Source of the DNA: Actinomycetota bacterium
GTDB taxonomy: Bacteria; Actinomycetota; Acidimicrobiia; Acidimicrobiales; Iamiaceae
Direction of reading: 5' to 3'
Length of the DNA stretch: 64,000 nt
Assembly: GCA_016185275.1 (NCBI GenBank)
Contig: JACPNX010000018.1
Location: forward strand, 62,001-126,000
The translations under genes and the position numbers were made by a program. Positions within the stretch are counted from its first letter, which is position 1. The number at the start of each line of letters is the position of its first letter. Below the pieces are notes generated by a model that searched no databases, was not told the origin of the DNA, and was given only the letters and a program-made list of their open reading frames with translations. Below, piece after piece: positions 22,320 through 35,949 of this stretch.

Positions 22320-22320
<1 letters not shown>
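21904..22320 (-). CDS. atpC: F1Fo ATP synthase epsilon subunit
   Basis: 138 residues. The N-terminal beta sandwich begins MALDVQVVSPERILWSGEADLV and contains the family-typical GHAPFVGALAIG. The C-terminus has the helical hairpin region EEIDVERARQAKEQAERTL. It regulates and couples F1 rotation. The ATG overlaps the atpD TGA by four bases (ATGA). It is the last gene of the operon, followed by a palindrome that may terminate transcription. Confidence 0.96.
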
Positions 22321-24699
<2,379 letters not shown>

Positions 24700-24707
24700 G
24701 GCCGGAC

Positions 24708-26273
24708 CTAGCTCTCGGAGGCGCGGACGGCGCCGCCCGGCCGGGGCGCGTCGCCGTCGCCCGAGGGTGCGAACTGCTCGCCGAAGGACCGGATCGCCTG
24801 CTTCAGCGCGTCCTCGTCGCCGAGCGCGCCGCTCGTGCGGATGCCGTCGAGGAGGTCGCCGTGGCGGGCGCGCAGGTAGTCGACCAGCTCGGCCTCGTAG
24901 CGCCGGACGTCGGGCACCGGGACCTCGTCGAGGTAGCCGCGGGTGCCGGCGTAGAGCACCACCACCTGCTCCTCGACCGGCATCGGCGAGTTGAGCCCCT
25001 GCTTGAGCAGCTCGGTCAGCCGGTACCCGCGCTCGAGCGTGGCCTGCGACACCGCGTCGAGCTCGGAGCCGAACGACGCGAACGCCTCGAGCTCGCGGAA
25101 CTGGGCGAGGTCGCCCTTGAGCGTGCCCACCGCCGCCTTCATGGCCTTGATCTGGGCGGCGCCGCCCACCCGGGACACCGATTGGCCGACGTTGATCGCC
25201 GGGCGGATGCCCGACTTGAACAGGTCGTCTTCGAGGAAGATCTGGCCGTCGGTGATCGAGATCACGTTGGTCGGGATGTACGCCGAGATGTCGCCGGCCT
25301 TGGTCTCGATGACCGGCAGCGCGGTGAGGGATCCGCCGCCGTTGGCGTCGGAGAGCTTGGCCGCCCGCTCGAGCAGCCGGCTGTGCAGGTAGAAGACGTC
25401 GCCCGGGTACGCCTCGCGGCCCGGCGGCCGGCGCAGCAGCAGGGAGATCTGGCGGTAGGCCTCGGCCTGCTTGGACAGGTCGTCGTAGACGGCGAGGGCG
25501 TGGCCGCCGTTGTCCATCCAGTGCTGGCCCATGGCGCAGCCGGCGTAGGGCGCGAGGTACTTGAACGGGGCCGGGTCGGAGGCGGCCGCCACCACGACCA
25601 CGGTGTACTCGAGCGCCCCGTGCTGGGCCAGCGTGGCCACCGTGTTCGCCACCGTCGAGGCCTTCTGCCCGATGGCGACGTAGATGCAGTTCACCCCCAG
25701 GCCCTTCTGGTTGATGATCGTGTCGATGGCCACGGTCGTCTTGCCCGTCTTGCGGTCGCCGATGATGAGCTCGCGCTGACCGCGGCCCACCGGCGTCATG
25801 GCGTCGATGGCCTTGATGCCGGTCTGCAGCGGTTGGTGCACCGGCTGGCGGCCGATGATGCCGGGGGCCTGCACCTCCATGCGGCGCTGCTCCACGCCGG
25901 TGAGGTCGCCCTTGCCGTCGATCGGGTTGCCGAGGGCGTCGACCACGCGGCCGAGCAGCCCGTCGCCCACCGGGACCGACAGGATGTTCCCGGTCGCCTT
26001 GACCGTCTGCCCCTCTTCGATGTGGTGCACGTCGCCGAGGACCACCGCGCCGATGGACTCCTCGTCGAGGTTGAGGGCCAGGCCCACCGTGCCGTCTTCG
26101 AACTCGAGCAGCTCGTTCACGGCCGCGTCGGGCAGGCCCGAGACGCGGGCGATGCCGTCGCCCACCTCGAGGATGCGCCCGACCTGGGCGGCGGACACGT
26201 CGGGGGTGAAGCCCTCCAGGTTGCGCCGGAGGACGGCGGTGATGTCGTCGGGAGAGAACGTCAGCTCGGCCAT
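24708..26273 (-). CDS. atpA: F1Fo ATP synthase alpha subunit
   Basis: 521 residues. The non-catalytic nucleotide-binding subunit, with Walker [28 protein letters not shown], and the arginine-finger region [11 protein letters not shown]-like ([35 protein letters not shown]). ATG 26273 gives the family start [17 protein letters not shown]. The frame stays open further upstream in unrelated sequence over atpH. An acidic/Pro-rich extension ends the protein. Confidence 0.97.
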
Positions 26274-26293
26274 GGGTTCCTCTACTTGGGCGT

Positions 26294-26821
26294 TCAGAGC
26301 GAGTTGCGGAGCTGCTCGAGGCGGCGGCGGACCGACCCGTCGATGACGGTGTCGCCCACGCGGGCGACGATGCCGCCCTGCACGGACGGGTCGATGATGA
26401 CCTTCACCTCGACCTGCTTGCCGGTGGCCCGCCCGAGCGCGTCGGCGAGGCGGACCTTCTGGTCGTCGGTGAGATCGGTGGCCGAGCGGACCTCGGCGAC
26501 CTCCTTGGACGCGGCGGCCGCGCTGCGCGCGACCATCGCGTCGACGATGGCGGGGATCTCGCGGGCCCGGCCGGCGGCCACGAGCAGGCTCACGATGCCG
26601 GTCGTGGACGGCTGCGCCCGCCCGCCGAGCAGGTCCTCGACGATCTGCTGGCGGAGGGCGGCAGGGATGTGCGGGTCGGCAAGGCGGTCGCGCAGCTCGT
26701 CGTTGGCCTCGAGGGCCCGGGCGAAGCGGAACAGCTCGTCCTCGACCTCCCCGAGGGCGCCCTCGGCGCGGGCGACCGAGAACAGCGCCTCGGCGTAGAC
26801 GTCGACCCGCAGCTCGTTCAC
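26294..26821 (-). CDS. atpH: F1Fo ATP synthase delta subunit
   Basis: 175 residues. OSCP-type peripheral stalk subunit: N-terminal [18 protein letters not shown], then the C-terminal strand region [37 protein letters not shown], which is the family signature. GTG 26821 overlaps the TGA of atpF by four bases. Confidence 0.96.
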
Positions 26822-27492
26822 GGCTGCGAACCCACCTGGGCGATGAACTGCTCGACGAGCTGGGTGTTGGTGTCGCGGTCGAGGTTGCGGCCGACGACCT
26901 TCTCGGCGGCGCCGATGGCCAGGGCCGCCACCTCATGGCGGAGGTCGGCGATGGCCTGCTGCTTGGAGGCTTCGATGTCCGCCGCCGCCCGCTGGCGCAT
27001 CTCGGCCAGCTCGGCTTGGAGCCGCTGCTCCTGGTCGCGCTTGATCGAGTCGGCCGCCTGCCGCGCCTCTTCGATGATGCGGCCCGACTCCGCCCGGGCG
27101 TCGGCGAGCTGGGCCCGGTACTCGGCGAGCACCTGCTCCGCTTGGGACTTGGCCGACTCCGCCCCTTCGAGGTCGCCGCGGATCTTGTCCGCCCGGGCGT
27201 CGAGCCCCTTCTTCACCGCCGGGTACCCGAACTTGGCGAGGAACCCGAACACGACGACGAAGGCGATGCCGACCCAGATGAGCTCGTTGGTGGCGGGCAC
27301 GAGCGGGTTCGGGGCCTGCTGGCAGGCGTCGATCTCGGCGCCCTGCTCCAGCTTCTTGATGCACTCCTCGCCGGCCTTGGTGGCCTTGGTGGTGGTCCCG
27401 CCGGCATCCTGGGCCCCGGCCCACGAACCGGTGCCGAGGGCGCCGACGACGACCAGCGCCACGGCGGCGACGAGCAGCCGGGTGCGCCGCAC
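26818..27492 (-). CDS. atpF: F1Fo ATP synthase b subunit with cleavable-type signal peptide
   Basis: 224 residues. Subunit b normally begins with its single membrane helix. Here residues 1-28 look like a signal peptide ([20 protein letters not shown] ending in AGAQD). About 40 exported residues with two Cys ([14 protein letters not shown]) come before the expected membrane helix at about 70-88. A long charged coiled coil follows. The rest ([29 protein letters not shown]) is ordinary b subunit and dimerises to hold delta. It is three bases from atpE and overlaps atpH. The periplasmic-side domain is the odd part. Confidence 0.93.
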
Positions 27493-27494
27493 CG

Positions 27495-28565
<1,071 letters not shown>

Positions 28566-29012
28566 CTACTCCTTTGCTGCCGCGGGCTTGAGCCCGGGGA
28601 AGGCCAACGAGGCGGACACGTACCGGGTCTCCCAGGCGAGCAGACCGAGGTGGCTCACGATCAGCGCGAGGCCGAGCGGCCAGGGCGCCAGCCACGGTTG
28701 GTGGCGCACGGCGAGGACGATCCCGGCGACGAGCGCCATGCGCACCAGGAAGCCGAACAGGGCCACGGCCATCACGAGGCCGAGGGAGATGCGTGCCGCC
28801 CACGCCAGCAGGGCGGCGGAGAGCCAGAAGTTGGCGAGGACGATCGCGGTGGCGAGGCCGACCGACGCGACGCCGGCCCACCCCCACACGAGGCCGGCCG
28901 GCAGCAGGGCCACCGGCGCGGCGAGCGCGCCGCGGCGGACCAGGTCGCCGGCCACCTCGCGCTCGGTGGCGGGACCGAGGTCGCGGCCGACGAGGACCGA
29001 TGCGTCGGTCAT
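28566..29012 (-). CDS. atpI: ATP synthase subunit I-like membrane protein
   Basis: 148 residues with four hydrophobic segments, matching the ATP synthase I family, thought to help c-ring assembly or Mg2+ uptake. Conservation of this family is low, so the call depends largely on position between atpZ and atpB. The ATG overlaps the stop of the preceding gene (29009-29012). Confidence 0.8.
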   Translation of the reverse strand: MTDASVLVGRDLGPATEREVAGDLVRRGALAAPVALLPAGLVWGWAGVASVGLATAIVLANFWLSAALLAWAARISLGLVMAVALFGFLVRMALVAGIVLAVRHQPWLAPWPLGLALIVSHLGLLAWETRYVSASLAFPGLKPAAAKE

Positions 29013-29329
29013 GGCCCCGGCTCCACCGAGCCGTCGGCGGGCGCCGGCCCGCCGGGGGCGGCCTCACCCGCGACACGCCGGCGGGGCAGGTCGGCCTCGA
29101 GCGCGCGCATCCTCGCGTCGTAGCCCAGCCACATCTTCACGAAGGTGCCGGCGAAGCCGAAGAGGCTGAACGCCACCACGAACAGCGGAAAGGTGCCGGC
29201 GACCCGGTCGACCAGCCAGCCGATGCCGCCGAACACGACGGGCACGAGCGCCATCTCCATGCCGCGCGAGAACGAGTCACCGAAGCCTCGGTTCAGGTCT
29301 CGCTTGGCTCGCAGATCGAAGGCGGGCAC
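29009..29329 (-). CDS. AtpZ/AtpI-type F0F1 ATPase subunit
   Basis: 106 residues. A two-helix membrane protein (FGDSFSRGMEMALVPVVFGGIGWLVDRVAG, then FPLFVVAFSLFGFAGTFVKMW) of the AtpZ family, which acts with AtpI in ion handling or assembly. The C-terminus is Ala/Gly/Pro-rich and cytoplasmic. It is the first gene of the ATP synthase operon. The 184-bp gap upstream is less GC-rich and holds the likely promoter. Confidence 0.82.
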   Translation of the reverse strand: MPAFDLRAKRDLNRGFGDSFSRGMEMALVPVVFGGIGWLVDRVAGTFPLFVVAFSLFGFAGTFVKMWLGYDARMRALEADLPRRRVAGEAAPGGPAPADGSVEPGP

Positions 29330-29412
29330 GGAGGTCCTTGCAGACGATGGCGAAGAACGGGCGGGAAGCGACGGTCGCAGCGAGGCGAACCAGCGCTTGT
29401 GAACGTTTGCGC

Positions 29413-29442
29413 AATGTAGGCCACAGGTTTCGCGGCCCGCAA
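29413..29442 (-). promoter_or_regulatory. candidate promoter of the atp operon
   Basis: On the minus strand TTGCGG (29437-29442), an 18-bp spacer and TACATT (29413-29418). It lies about 85 bp upstream of the first atp gene in the AT-richest stretch nearby, so it would give a real 5' leader, unlike many genes here. Confidence 0.35.
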
Positions 29443-29513
29443 ATCTGGCTCGCGAGCCGGCTCAACATTGGCGCGAAGGACCGGCGAACCGTACCAGCCG
29501 CCGGCGAGAGCGG

Positions 29514-30632
29514 TCAGGCCTCGTCGGTCGCGGCCCTCGCCCGGCGCACGCCGGGATGGAAGTACGTGTAGAGGAACAGCCCGAGCGCGACCACCCCGAT
29601 CGGGACCAGCGCGTCGCCCTTGCCGGTGTAGACGGGATACAGCACGAAGGCCGACAGCAGCGCGGTCCACGACCAGAGGATCACGACGCTGCGGCGCTGG
29701 CCGTGCCCCAGGCGCATGAGGCGGTGGTGCAGGTGGTCCTTGTCGGCCTCGGCCACACCGGCTCGCTTCGTGGCCCGGCGGACGATGGCGAAGGCCGTGT
29801 CGAGGATGGGAACGCCCATGACGAAGAACGGGATGAACAGCGGCAGGTAGAAGAAGAACACCTGGCCGCTGAACGGGTTGTCGGTCTGGCCGCCGACGAG
29901 CATGGTGGCGGCCGCCATCATCGTGCCGAGCATCAGCGCACCGCCGTCGCCCATGAAGATCCGCGCCGGGTGGAGGTTGAACGGCAGGAACCCCGCACAG
30001 ATGCCGACCACGAGGATCGCCACCAGAGGGCTCGGGTTCTCCGGGCGCAGCACCCCGACGTCGGCGAGGCGGTGGCCGTAGAGGAAGAAGGCGGCGGCGG
30101 CGATGGCCACGATGCCGGCGGCGAGGCCGTCGAGGCCGTCGATCAGGTTCACCGCGTTGGCCATGCCGAGCACCCACAGCACGGTGACCAGTGGCGCCAG
30201 GTCGGACGACAGCACCAGCAGCCCCGCGAACGGGATGCGGAAGAACAGCATCGCCACGCCGAGCAGGTACAGCGACGACCCCGCCAGCACGAGACCGGCG
30301 GTCTTGGCCGGTGCCGAGACGGGCCGCACGTCGTCAACCGTCCCCACCGCGCAGGCGACCGCGGCGGCCAGCACCACCGCCACCGGCAGGGACGATCCCT
30401 CGAACATGGCGGCGAAGCCCCCGATGCGCGACGCGACCAGCATCCCGACCGCGAAGCCGGCGAGCATGGCCAGGCCGCCGAAGTACGGCGTCGGGACCTT
30501 GTGAACGCGCCGGGCGTCCGGCTGCGCCAGTGCCCCCACCCGGCGGGCGAGCCGCCGGAACACCGGGGTGAGCACGAGCGTGACGCCGGACGCGACCGCG
30601 AAGACGACCCCGTAGTCGATTGCTCGGGCCAA
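29514..30632 (-). CDS. wecA: undecaprenyl-phosphate GlcNAc/sugar-1-phosphate transferase
   Basis: 372 residues, polytopic member of the MraY/WecA/TagO family. It loads a sugar-1-phosphate on polyprenyl phosphate to begin wall polymer synthesis. Catalytic motifs are in order: GTVDDVRPV, NLIDGLDGLAAG, FMGDGGALMLG and the HLHHRL cytoplasmic loop. The start is TTG 30632, ten bases after glyA. Position between glyA and the atp genes is conserved in actinobacteria, where the enzyme supplies arabinogalactan or teichoic-acid linkage lipids. The polymer made here is unknown. Confidence 0.9.
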   Translation of the reverse strand: MARAIDYGVVFAVASGVTLVLTPVFRRLARRVGALAQPDARRVHKVPTPYFGGLAMLAGFAVGMLVASRIGGFAAMFEGSSLPVAVVLAAAVACAVGTVDDVRPVSAPAKTAGLVLAGSSLYLLGVAMLFFRIPFAGLLVLSSDLAPLVTVLWVLGMANAVNLIDGLDGLAAGIVAIAAAAFFLYGHRLADVGVLRPENPSPLVAILVVGICAGFLPFNLHPARIFMGDGGALMLGTMMAAATMLVGGQTDNPFSGQVFFFYLPLFIPFFVMGVPILDTAFAIVRRATKRAGVAEADKDHLHHRLMRLGHGQRRSVVILWSWTALLSAFVLYPVYTGKGDALVPIGVVALGLFLYTYFHPGVRRARAATDEA

Positions 30633-30642
30633 GGTGCGCGAT

Positions 30643-31890
30643 TCAGGCCGGGGGGTACGGGGCGAACTTGGTGCACAGGGCGGTGACCTCGTCGTGCACC
30701 TGTGCCAGCGAACCGGCGTCGTCGCGGTCTTCGAGCACGAGGTGGATCAGGTGCGCGACCTCCCGCATCTCGCGGGGCCCCATCCCCTGCGTAGTGACGG
30801 CGGGCGTCCCGATCCGCAGGCCGCTGGCGACGTAGGGCGGGCGGGGATCGTCGGGCACCGTGTTCTCGTTGAGGCTGATCCCGGCAGCGTCCAGGGCCAG
30901 CCGCGCCTTCTTGCCCGACAGCTCCGGGTCGAACGACCGCAGGTCGACCAGCATCAGGTGGTTGTCGGTGCCGCCCGAGACCAGGCGGAAGCCGTGGCCG
31001 GCCAGGGCCTCGGCGAGGGCGGCGGCGTTGGCCACGATCTGTCGCGCGTACTCGGCGAACTCGGGTTGCGCGGCCTCGTGGAAGGCGACGGCCTTCGCCG
31101 CGATCACATGGTCGAGGGGGCCGCCCTGCGAGCCGGGGAACACGGCCTTGTCGATGGCGCCGGCGTGCTCGGCCCGGCTGACGATGCAACCGCCGCGGGG
31201 GCCGCGCAGCGTCTTGTGCGTGGTGAACGTGACCACGTCCGCGAACGGCACCGGGTTGGGGTGCACGCCTCCGGCGATGAGCCCCGCCACGTGGGCCGCG
31301 TCGAACAGGAAGAGGGCGCCGACCTCGTCGGCGATGGCCCGGAACGGTTCGGGTTCGATGATGCGCGGGTAGGCGGTGGCGCCGGCGACGATCAGCTTCG
31401 GGCGGTGCTGGCGGGCGAGGTCGCGCAAGTGGTCGAAGTCGATGCGCTCGTCGCTCGCCGTGAGCCCGTACGACACGAACCGGTAGAGGATGCCGCTCGC
31501 GTTGACCGGCGAGCCGTGCGTGAGGTGACCGCCCTGGTCGAGCCGCAGGCCGAGCACGGTGTCGCCGGGCGCGAGCAGCGCCTGGTACACGGCCATGTTG
31601 GCGTTGGCGCCGGAGTGGGGTTGCACGTTGGCGTGCTCGGCGCCGAAGAGCGCCTTGGCCCGCTCCCGCGCCAGCTCCTCGGCTCGGTCGATCACCTCGT
31701 TGCCGCCGTAGTAGCGCTTGCCGGGGTAGCCCTCGCTGTACTTGTTGGTGAGCACGGAGCCGGTGGCTCGCATGACGGCGGGCGAGGCGAAGTTCTCCGA
31801 CGCGATGAGCTGCAACGTGGTGCGCTGCCGCGCCAGCTCGTCGTCGAGGATGGCGAACAGGTCGGCGTCTTCGGTCGTGGGCCAGGGCAT
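30643..31890 (-). CDS. glyA: serine hydroxymethyltransferase
   Basis: 415 residues, PLP enzyme interconverting serine and glycine with tetrahydrofolate. The PLP lysine lies in [46 protein letters not shown] and [15 protein letters not shown] are all canonical. ATG 31890 follows AGGAG by five bases and sits immediately after the stop of the LMW-PTP/RpiB fusion, so the two are one transcription unit. Confidence 0.97.
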
Positions 31891-31898
31891 GGGGTCTC

Positions 31899-33098
31899 CT
31901 AGTCGGCGGGACGTCCGTGCAGCAACGATTCGATGAGCGCGTCCTGCGCCTTGCGATCGCCGGCGGCGGCCTCGAGGGCGGTGAGCTGGTCCACGCGGCG
32001 TTGGTGACGGCCGCCGTCGAACGTCGTGGCCAGCCACGTGGCGACGATCTCCTCGGCCAGCCCCTCGCCCACCACGCGCGCTCCCATCGACAGCACGTTG
32101 GCGTCGTTGTGCGCACGCGAGAAGCGAGCGGTGAACAGGTCGTTGCAGAGCGCGGCCCGCACCCCGGGCACCGTGTTGGCCGCGAGCTGCTCGCCCTGCC
32201 CGGACCCGCCGACGACGATCCCCCGGTCGGCCGCGCCGTAGGTCACCGCCCGGCCCACGCCCGCGCAGAAGCCGGGATAGTCGACGGGCTCGGGGCCGTG
32301 CGTTCCGACGTCCAGCACCTCGTGGCCGAGCTTGGTGAGCACCTCGATCAGGTGCGCCTTGAGGGCGAAGCCCGCGTGGTCGGAGCCGACGGCGACCCGC
32401 AGCGTGGGCGCGGCGCCGTTCCCGATCGGCGCCGCCCGCGCCTCGGGCTCCGGTCGAGGCTCGACCGCCGGTCGGGCTGCGCTCGGCCGCGGCTCCGGCT
32501 CGCCGAGCTCGGAGGCGACCCGGGCACCGGGCTCGCGACCGGCTCCGTCGGCCGGCGCCGCGGCGTGCGCCCACAGCAGATCGGCCAGCCGGTCGACGAG
32601 GTCGTCGATCTCGGCGGCCGCCGCCTGGTACACGGCGAGGGGCTGGCCGATCGGGTCGGCGACGTCGTCGTGGGAGTCCGGGCCGAGCAGCGAAGCGGGC
32701 TTGCGGCCCATGCCGACCCGATCGAGCCAGCGCTCGATCGACTCCGACCGGCGGGCACCGCAACCCTCGCCCAGGCGCACGAGCTCCTTCAGCGTGAAGA
32801 TGCGCCCGAAGCGCCCCGGGCACGCCACCGTGGCCTCCCGGACGTGCTCCCGGGCCATGCCGACCACCAGATCGGCGGACTGCACGAGCTCGGGCGTCAG
32901 GAGGCGGCTGCGGTGCCCCGAGAGGTCGAGGCCGCGCTCGCGCATCGCCTCCACGGCGCCGCCGGACGCCGGGCGCCCCTCGCTCACCGTGCCCGCGGAC
33001 GACACCGTCGCGTCCACGCCCAGCCGCTCGAACCGGTCGCGCAACAGCACCTCGGCCATGGGTGATCGGCACTGGTTGCCGGTGCAGACGAGGAGCAG
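31899..33098 (-). CDS. rpiB: LMW protein phosphatase / ribose-5-phosphate isomerase B fusion
   Basis: About 400 residues. The N-terminal part is a low-molecular-weight phosphatase: P-loop CTGNQCRSP and the DP-containing [13 protein letters not shown] Pro/Ala/Arg/Glu linker (about 170-225) joins it to RpiB with [13 protein letters not shown] and [17 protein letters not shown]. In Bacillus, ywlE (arginine phosphatase) and ywlF (RpiB) are separate neighbours upstream of glyA. The P-loop residue that sets specificity, Thr in YwlE and Ile in tyrosine phosphatases, is Gln here. No ATG, GTG or TTG precedes the P-loop in frame. I place the start at CTG 33098; the first ordinary start (ATG 33059) would remove the catalytic loop. 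Confidence 0.85.
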
Positions 33099-33175
33099 GT
33101 CGATGCGCCGGATCGTAGTGCCGGCCCGTACGCTGCCTGCCCCGCCCGACCACTCCCCGCCCGGTGAGCCCCGCC

Positions 33176-34681
33176 ATGCCGCCCCGTTCCGACGCCCTCG
33201 ATCCCCGGACGGCCGTACTGGTCGGTGGCGGGCAGCTCAGCCACCGCGTCGACCGCGGGGCCACCCCGATGGAGCCGGTCGAGCTCATGGCCGAAGCGGC
33301 GAGGCGCGCGGCGGCCGACACCGGAGCCGCTGCGGGTGAGGTGCTCGCCGCGGTCGACACCGTCGCGATCGTGCAGATCTTCTCGTGGCGCTACCGCGAC
33401 CCCGCCGCGCTCGTGGCCGAGCGGATCGGCGCCCCGGTGCGGCGAACGATCCACACGGCGACCGGCGGCAACATGCCCCAGGCACTCGTGAACCGGGCAT
33501 GCCTCGACATCGAGTCGGGACGGGCCGATGCCGTGCTCATCGGCGGCGCCGAGGCATGGCGCACCCGCTCGGCCGCTCGCGCTGCCGGTGAGCACCCGGC
33601 ATGGACGGTGCAGGACGACACCGTCGCACCGTCGGAGGTCCTCGGCCATGACGGACCTCTCGGCCATCCTGCGGAGACCGCCTGTGGTCTGGTGGCACCG
33701 GTCCAGCACTATCCCCTGTTCGAGAGCGTCCTGCGGGCCCGGGCCGGGCGCTCGCACGCCGAGCACCTTGCGCACCTGAGCCGTCTCTGGGCCGGGTTCA
33801 GCGAGGTGGCGTCGACCAACCCGCACGCGTGGATCCAGGAGCGGTTCTCGGCCGAGCAGCTCGCCACCGTCGACCCCGGCAACCGCATGGTCGGGTTCCC
33901 GTACCCGAAGCGTCTGAACTCGAACAACGCGGTCGAACAGGGCGCCGCCGTCCTCGTGTGCTCCGCCGAGCGGGCCCGGCGCCTCGGCATCGCGCCCGAG
34001 CGTTGGGTGTTCCCGCACGCCGGCACCGATGCTCACGACACGCTGTTCGTCTCGAACCGGCCGGACCTGGGTGGGTCACCGGCGATCCGGGTGGCGGGTC
34101 GCCGGGCGCTCGCTCTGGCCGGTGTCGGCCCCGACGACCTCGCGCACCTCGACGTCTACTCGTGCTTCCCGTCCGCGGTGCAGGTGGCCGCCGCCGAGCT
34201 GGGGTTCGGCCTCGACCGGCGTCTGACGGTCACGGGTGGCCTGTCGTTCGCCGGAGGCCCCTGGAACGACTACGTGACCCACGCGCTGGCCACGATGGTC
34301 GGCGTGCTGCGCGACGACCCCGGCTCACGCGGCCTCGTCACCGCCAACGGTGGCTTCCTGACCAAGCACGCGTTCGGCGTCTACTCCACCGAGCCGCCGG
34401 CCGGCGGCTTCCGGTACGACGAGCCCCAGGCCGAGGTGGATGCGGCCGGCTCGGTCGACCTGGCCGAGGGCGCAACGGGGCCGGCGACGGTGGAGGCCTA
34501 CACGGTCATGCACGACCGGGAGGGTGCGCCCGAGCGGGCCTTCGCCGCCGTGCGGCTGGCCGACGGCCGGCGGGCATGGTCCACGAGCACGGATGCCGGC
34601 GTGCTGGCCGAGATGCTGGCCACCGAGGTCGTCGGCCGCTCCGCCGACCTCACGGCCGAAGCGTCGCTGTCGCTCCGCTGA
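33176..34681 (+). CDS. thiolase-like protein type 1 (acetyl-CoA acetyltransferase-like)
   Basis: About 501 residues with a thiolase fold plus a C-terminal beta-barrel extension, as in thiolase-like proteins of type 1 (TLP1). The usual nucleophilic Cys position reads [19 protein letters not shown], with no Cys, while [11 protein letters not shown] and [14 protein letters not shown] keep other thiolase elements. True thiolase activity is therefore doubtful. Such proteins occur in lipid/steroid catabolic regions of actinobacteria. ATG 33176 fits the family N-terminus; a GTG at 33164 is an alternative. It is divergent from the LMW-PTP/RpiB gene. Confidence 0.8.
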
Positions 34682-35734: not shown

Positions 35735-35761
35735 CGGCCTTCTCGGCGTGCCGCAGTGAGC

Positions 35762-35841
35762 GAGCGGGCGAGCGGGCGAGCGGGCGAGCGGGCGAGCGGG
35801 CGAGCGGGCGAGCGGGCGAGCGGGCGAGCGGGCGAGCGGGC
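35762..35841. repeat. ten tandem copies of GAGCGGGC
   Basis: Ten uninterrupted 8-bp units between divergent tsaC and the alcohol dehydrogenase, an 80-bp tract likely to vary in copy number. Its position between two starts could affect promoter spacing. Confidence 0.95.
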
Positions 35842-35949
35842 AAGCGCCCGCAGGCGAACCGGCCCTGCGCCCGGCGGAGCGGGGCCTGCGGCGGTACGGT
35901 CGCCACCGGGTCCGAGCGGACCCCGAGGCAGACGGCAAAGGGGGGCGCC

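Follow-up and report, generated by a model that had tools for sequence, protein, structure and literature searches.

A gene for an LMW phosphatase fused to RpiB, found in a member of the Acidimicrobiia (GenBank assembly GCA_016185275.1, contig JACPNX010000018.1), most probably lacks a leader and starts at an ATC codon. We place its promoter so that +1 would be the A of ATC 33104, with the ribosome initiating at AUC (probability about 0.87; positions are those of the window, the whole 64,000-nucleotide stretch of DNA that was analysed). Leaderless initiation was previously thought to need a 5′ AUG or GUG, and AUC would otherwise be expected hardly to work as a start; the arrangement is nonetheless kept in dozens of related species. 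A long-conserved AUC would mean that the RUG rule holds only in certain lineages or, alternatively, that weak leaderless starts have been deliberately retained. Gene callers restricted to ATG, GTG, and TTG will truncate or miss such proteins across a large, mostly uncultured class. The evidence is comparative sequence throughout, and the fusion comes from one draft assembly.

Start of the phosphatase gene in the window

The fusion frame extends from stop to stop over 33236..31899 (minus strand) and includes the loop CTGNQCRSP, with the catalytic Cys codon at 33086-33084. Features of the window are as follows.

33112..33117, minus strand: −10 promoter element TACGAT, read directly, 7 nt upstream of ATC 33104
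33102..33104, minus strand: predicted AUC start codon and +1 (A, 33104), with C at −1; position conserved, box and ATC moving together
33066..33086, minus strand: P-loop C-T-G-N-Q-C-R (C-X5-R) of the LMW phosphatase
33057..33059, minus strand: first in-frame ATG (Met of SPMAE), 3′ of the P-loop and catalytic Cys; not the start
31899..33104, minus strand: LMW phosphatase/RpiB fusion gene, 401 codons plus stop (LMW phosphatase domain at about residues 1-180, Ala/Pro-rich linker, RpiB domain at about 235-401)
30643..31890, minus strand: glyA (serine hydroxymethyltransferase), the following gene, preceded by a GGAG Shine-Dalgarno sequence of its own
22320..30632, minus strand: genes for a WecA-like glycosyltransferase and AtpI, followed by those of the F-type ATP synthase, all co-directional with the phosphatase

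Both domains were identified with Pfam in a single frame (LMWPc at residues 4-107, 6e-24; LacAB_rpiB at residues 237-374, 1e-52). The phosphatase part belongs to PF01451, having both the C-X5-R P-loop (CTGNQCR) and the family profile, and its segment DVADPIGQP aligns with the DP motif of 4egs. The LacAB_rpiB domain is complete (profile positions 1-138 of 138), and the RpiB part scored above the cut-off for TIGR01120 rpiB and below that for TIGR02133 (152 bits; cut-off, 168 bits). The gene heads a run of same-strand genes comprising glyA, the WecA-like transferase, AtpI, and the F-type ATP synthase. On its other side, 59 bp from the phosphatase start, a divergent gene for a thiolase-like acetyl-CoA acetyltransferase (33164-34681, plus strand) lies between the phosphatase and a Sua5 gene; a short tandem repeat (~35750-35845) encoding LARSPARP-type repeats immediately precedes the Sua5/YrdC domain frame.

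A first-pass annotation of this DNA had reported that the phosphatase lacks an ordinary start codon. The frame, read directly, agreed: it has no ATG, GTG, or TTG from the upstream in-frame stop to the P-loop, and the two upstream codons that had been pointed out are present (ATC at 33104-33102 and CTG at 33098-33096, minus strand). By sequence criteria, ATC 33104-33102 is the best start of the frame, and a protein started there has the same number of residues before the Cys as YwlE (alignment 1-109 to 1-109). Because TACGAT, a good actinobacterial −10 box, stands 7 nt before the ATC, the first transcribed base is most likely the A of this codon; the gene thus has the layout of leaderless genes, with a −10 box 6-8 nt before the start and no room for a Shine-Dalgarno sequence. 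It departs from the mycobacterial leaderless rule of an ATG or GTG start, having ATC and no RTG available. A generic sigma-70 consensus scan, which demands a −35 hexamer, found no promoter match. A sequencing error that hides a standard start, a possibility raised in the same annotation, is very unlikely, since the start-less layout recurs in dozens of separately assembled genomes, including the single-contig genomes G003 and G016.

Start regions in relatives and in lhr

Start regions were read from whole genomes (mostly drafts) and named contigs of Acidimicrobiia relatives, a comparison that the first-pass annotation had proposed as a check. At 58 of the 66 distinct orthologue loci with a box, TANNNT was followed after 6-8 nt by ATC; the codon in this place was otherwise GTG (5 loci), ATG (2 loci), or ATA (1 locus). 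The sampled genomes are related, and the 58 ATC loci do not represent 58 independent events. In shuffled upstream DNA, a box at this spacing is expected by chance in 0.98%. Eleven further loci were without a box and had mostly ordinary starts. The −10 consensus among the ATC loci was TA[CG]A[AC]T, and the −1 base was C in 49/58. The third-base C of the ATC was rejected as evidence by itself, because 96% of the internal Ile codons of the orthologue genes are ATC. Many relatives (L007, L009, L012, L014, L020, L026, L029, L059, L069, and L070) have a palindrome close to CTTGACCGnnCGGTCAAG, resembling a repressor operator, on the upstream side of the phosphatase −10 box; this palindrome is absent in the window.

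A second gene has the same arrangement. In the genome of the window, lhr (a DEAD-box helicase by sequence) has TACGAT, 6 nt, and ATC, and the next 64 codons include no standard start. Among the lhr start regions compared (L205-L233), TANNNT-6/7 nt-ATC was found in 18 of the 19 genomes read of the window's family, with the distance from the ATC to the first conserved motif ranging from 5 to 27 codons (−5 to −27) and an in-frame stop in the box in 12 of the 18. The nineteenth (L216) has GTC at the box and an in-frame TAA within it, and in other families the codon at the box is usually GTG or ATG.

Coding starts behind a −10 box were scanned with a simple coding score over 0.8 Mb, later 1.2 Mb, of the 3.4-Mb genome of the window. 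The 1.2 Mb yielded 62 leaderless ATG, 51 GTG, and 3 ATC genes, ATC being the sole codon other than ATG and GTG to rise above noise at leaderless spacing; genes of all three kinds had the same spacing and mostly C at −1. The stretches of G003 and G016 were picked to contain the phosphatase and lhr, so the ATC rate there is biased. A LivH-like permease with an N-terminal extension (L295, G000:C8:159707, minus strand) is a plausible candidate for a third ATC gene, having TACGAT-6 nt-ATC and then 28 codons that include no standard start; its relatives were read in small part, or have GTG or ATG one or two codons later (L306 and L312, with ATC at the box, then GTG or TTG-ATG). A separate observation concerns infC (L144, G000:C48, minus strand), which seemingly has an ATA start behind GAAGGA and no ATG, GTG, or TTG between the in-frame stop and the conserved IF3 start.

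A strict pattern matched in 18/296 class genomes (a lower bound, as the pattern fixes several codons), and its reversed-pattern control matched in 0/296. With the start codon left open, the pattern found ATC in families within and beyond the window's order, GTG in others, and ATG at the same leaderless spacing in the small AT-rich family f65. The predicted leaderless ATC arrangement is very widespread in Acidimicrobiia. Outside the class, leaderless ATC was not found in a 246-genome sample of the phylum, where matches mostly had ATG, GTG, or TTG at or beside the position. On the phosphatase tree (modest branch support), ATC is found on the majority of branches and was exchanged for canonical codons several times, with 13 changes versus a shuffled mean of 17.

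Alternative readings of the start

The ATC could merely mark where transcription starts and encode a conserved Ile, with translation beginning at a nearby non-standard codon (CTG 33098 or codon −4); CTG is known as a rare start in other systems, and several strand-1 codons differ from ATG by one base. We regard this as improbable. Codon −4 varies (ATC, GTC, GTG, CTG, GTT) and is not linked to the box, whereas the ATC and the box move together: the ATC is the sixth codon before the catalytic Cys (−6) in 53 loci, and in the five where it lies 1-5 codons farther upstream (L027, −7; L024 and L030, −9; L013, −10; L062, −11), the box was shifted along each time. The GTG and ATG of relatives substitute exactly at the ATC position, as in L154 and L159 (GTG as the sixth codon before the Cys, following TACACT and TAGGAT, respectively), and lhr obeys the same rule with a different sequence after the ATC. 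In L016, an ATG fourteen codons before the Cys stands 7 nt after TACACT. The ATC is bound to the promoter and not to a position in the protein. The first-pass annotation had suggested a rare start codon, or a leaderless start on one; a leaderless ATC, conserved across Acidimicrobiia and used also by lhr, is strongly supported, whereas CTG 33098 is not supported, as this codon is not conserved among the orthologues.

Slightly less probable again is a dedicated initiator (an unusual tRNA or a modified initiation factor) that decodes AUC as a regular start in the class. At least two unrelated genes use AUC, and infC of the window's genome is also without a standard start (ATA), both of which would suit such an initiator; against it, reading 30 of 43 tRNA loci and some neighbours turned up no unusual initiator tRNA, the tRNA genes there (among them three CAT and one GAT) being ordinary-looking, and ATC occurs in only about 3 of the 116 leaderless genes in 1.2 Mb.

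Translation from far upstream, or by a frameshift out of an upstream reading frame, is very unlikely, even though the frame in the window is open to 33236. On its upstream side the window has a divergently oriented gene, and the upstream sequence scores negative for coding. The −10 box itself contains an in-frame stop (e.g., TAGACT) in 14/58 ATC loci, which makes a start from upstream impossible in those loci, and 22/58 have no ATG, GTG, or TTG anywhere from the in-frame stop to the catalytic Cys. Least credible is a true start at ATG 33059, the first in-frame ATG and the likely pick of an automatic caller, yielding a truncated non-phosphatase protein whose front has decayed or was mis-sequenced: initiation there would remove strand 1 and the catalytic loop, which are kept in all orthologues, the Met of SPMAE is a family residue, and where relatives have normal starts, these lie at the same upstream position.

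Proposed mechanism and comparison with known systems

Under the leaderless ATC reading, the 5′ end of the mRNA would be the AUC itself, and initiation there would presumably employ the ordinary initiator tRNA, the codon being read as formyl-Met. The C-C mismatch at codon position 3 should make this initiation weak. A strong, near-consensus −10 box combined with a weak start codon would then give much mRNA of a housekeeping operon (glyA, ATP synthase) and little phosphatase per transcript. We put forward this pairing of strong promoter and weak first-cistron start as a dosage device with less assurance than the start itself; position 4 of the −10 box, which is A in 37/58 phosphatase ATC loci versus 3/116 leaderless genes of the window's genome, was counted in favor of a strong promoter. 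A weak leaderless AUC start would, in addition, respond to IF3 and free 70S ribosomes. In E. coli, IF3 has been documented to antagonise leaderless mRNAs (PMC9031893), so an IF3-sensitive switch is conceivable here. More speculatively, and less likely than not, AUC may be a functional, selectively kept leaderless start in Acidimicrobiia for a few genes (the phosphatase, lhr, and perhaps the LivH-like permease), at which translation would be controlled in response to the IF3 level or to free 70S ribosomes.

The YwlE arginine phosphatase (1zgg, 4kk3, 4pic) and 4egs are the closest solved LMW phosphatases, and the N-terminal length is the same. YwlE has Thr as the third P-loop residue, whereas the window phosphatase has Gln and so lacks this mark of YwlE. 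The Gln had been taken in the first-pass annotation to indicate a possible new target, but it is ordinary variation, being one of seven residues found there among the 58 ATC-start orthologues (I, 39; Q, 11; T, 3; R, 2; V, L, and A, 1 each). The fusion to RpiB, reported there as well, is real in the assembly but private to this genome: it was seen in one draft genome only, and the other ATC-start loci with the frame read have a separate phosphatase gene, most of ~180-215 amino acids. Nor is the pairing or the naming new. Phosphatase and rpiB genes are neighbours in most relatives, usually in different frames, and the best solved match of the phosphatase part, 4egs, is an LMW phosphatase that was deposited as RpiB, so their association is of long standing. 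In B. subtilis, ywlE likewise lies beside rpiB-like ywlF and glyA. The RpiB part resembles the actinobacterial type (Mycobacterium tuberculosis RpiB, 2vvo/1usl; TIGR02133) in its full-length domain match and in the shared GGSGQGEQ motif; unlike the M. tuberculosis protein, it sits fused behind a phosphatase.

Start codons of the AUU/AUC/AUA type, with IF3 autoregulation, are known from infC (E. coli infC, Myxococcus dsg). The phosphatase is like these in that a conserved AUH replaces AUG, which in infC is thought to keep synthesis low or regulated. It differs in that infC starts are led by a Shine-Dalgarno sequence, whereas the phosphatase and lhr are predicted to be leaderless and are unrelated to IF3.

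Rare bacterial AUC starts have been acknowledged (PMC9094748), and ATC with a Shine-Dalgarno sequence had low activity (PMC4633059). No bacterial precedent for a leaderless AUC start was found in the literature searched, which took in few subscription papers. In mycobacteria, a 5′ ATG or GTG was found to be necessary and sufficient for leaderless initiation, and leaderless reporters in M. smegmatis required RTG, with ATC serving as the inactive negative control (PMC4633059). The phosphatase resembles the leaderless RUG genes of mycobacteria and other actinobacteria (PMC4633059, PMC9094748) in its −10 box just upstream, its preference for C at −1, and an mRNA that would begin with the first base of the start codon; unlike in the mycobacterial genes, it is ATC that holds the start position in the phosphatase of Acidimicrobiia.
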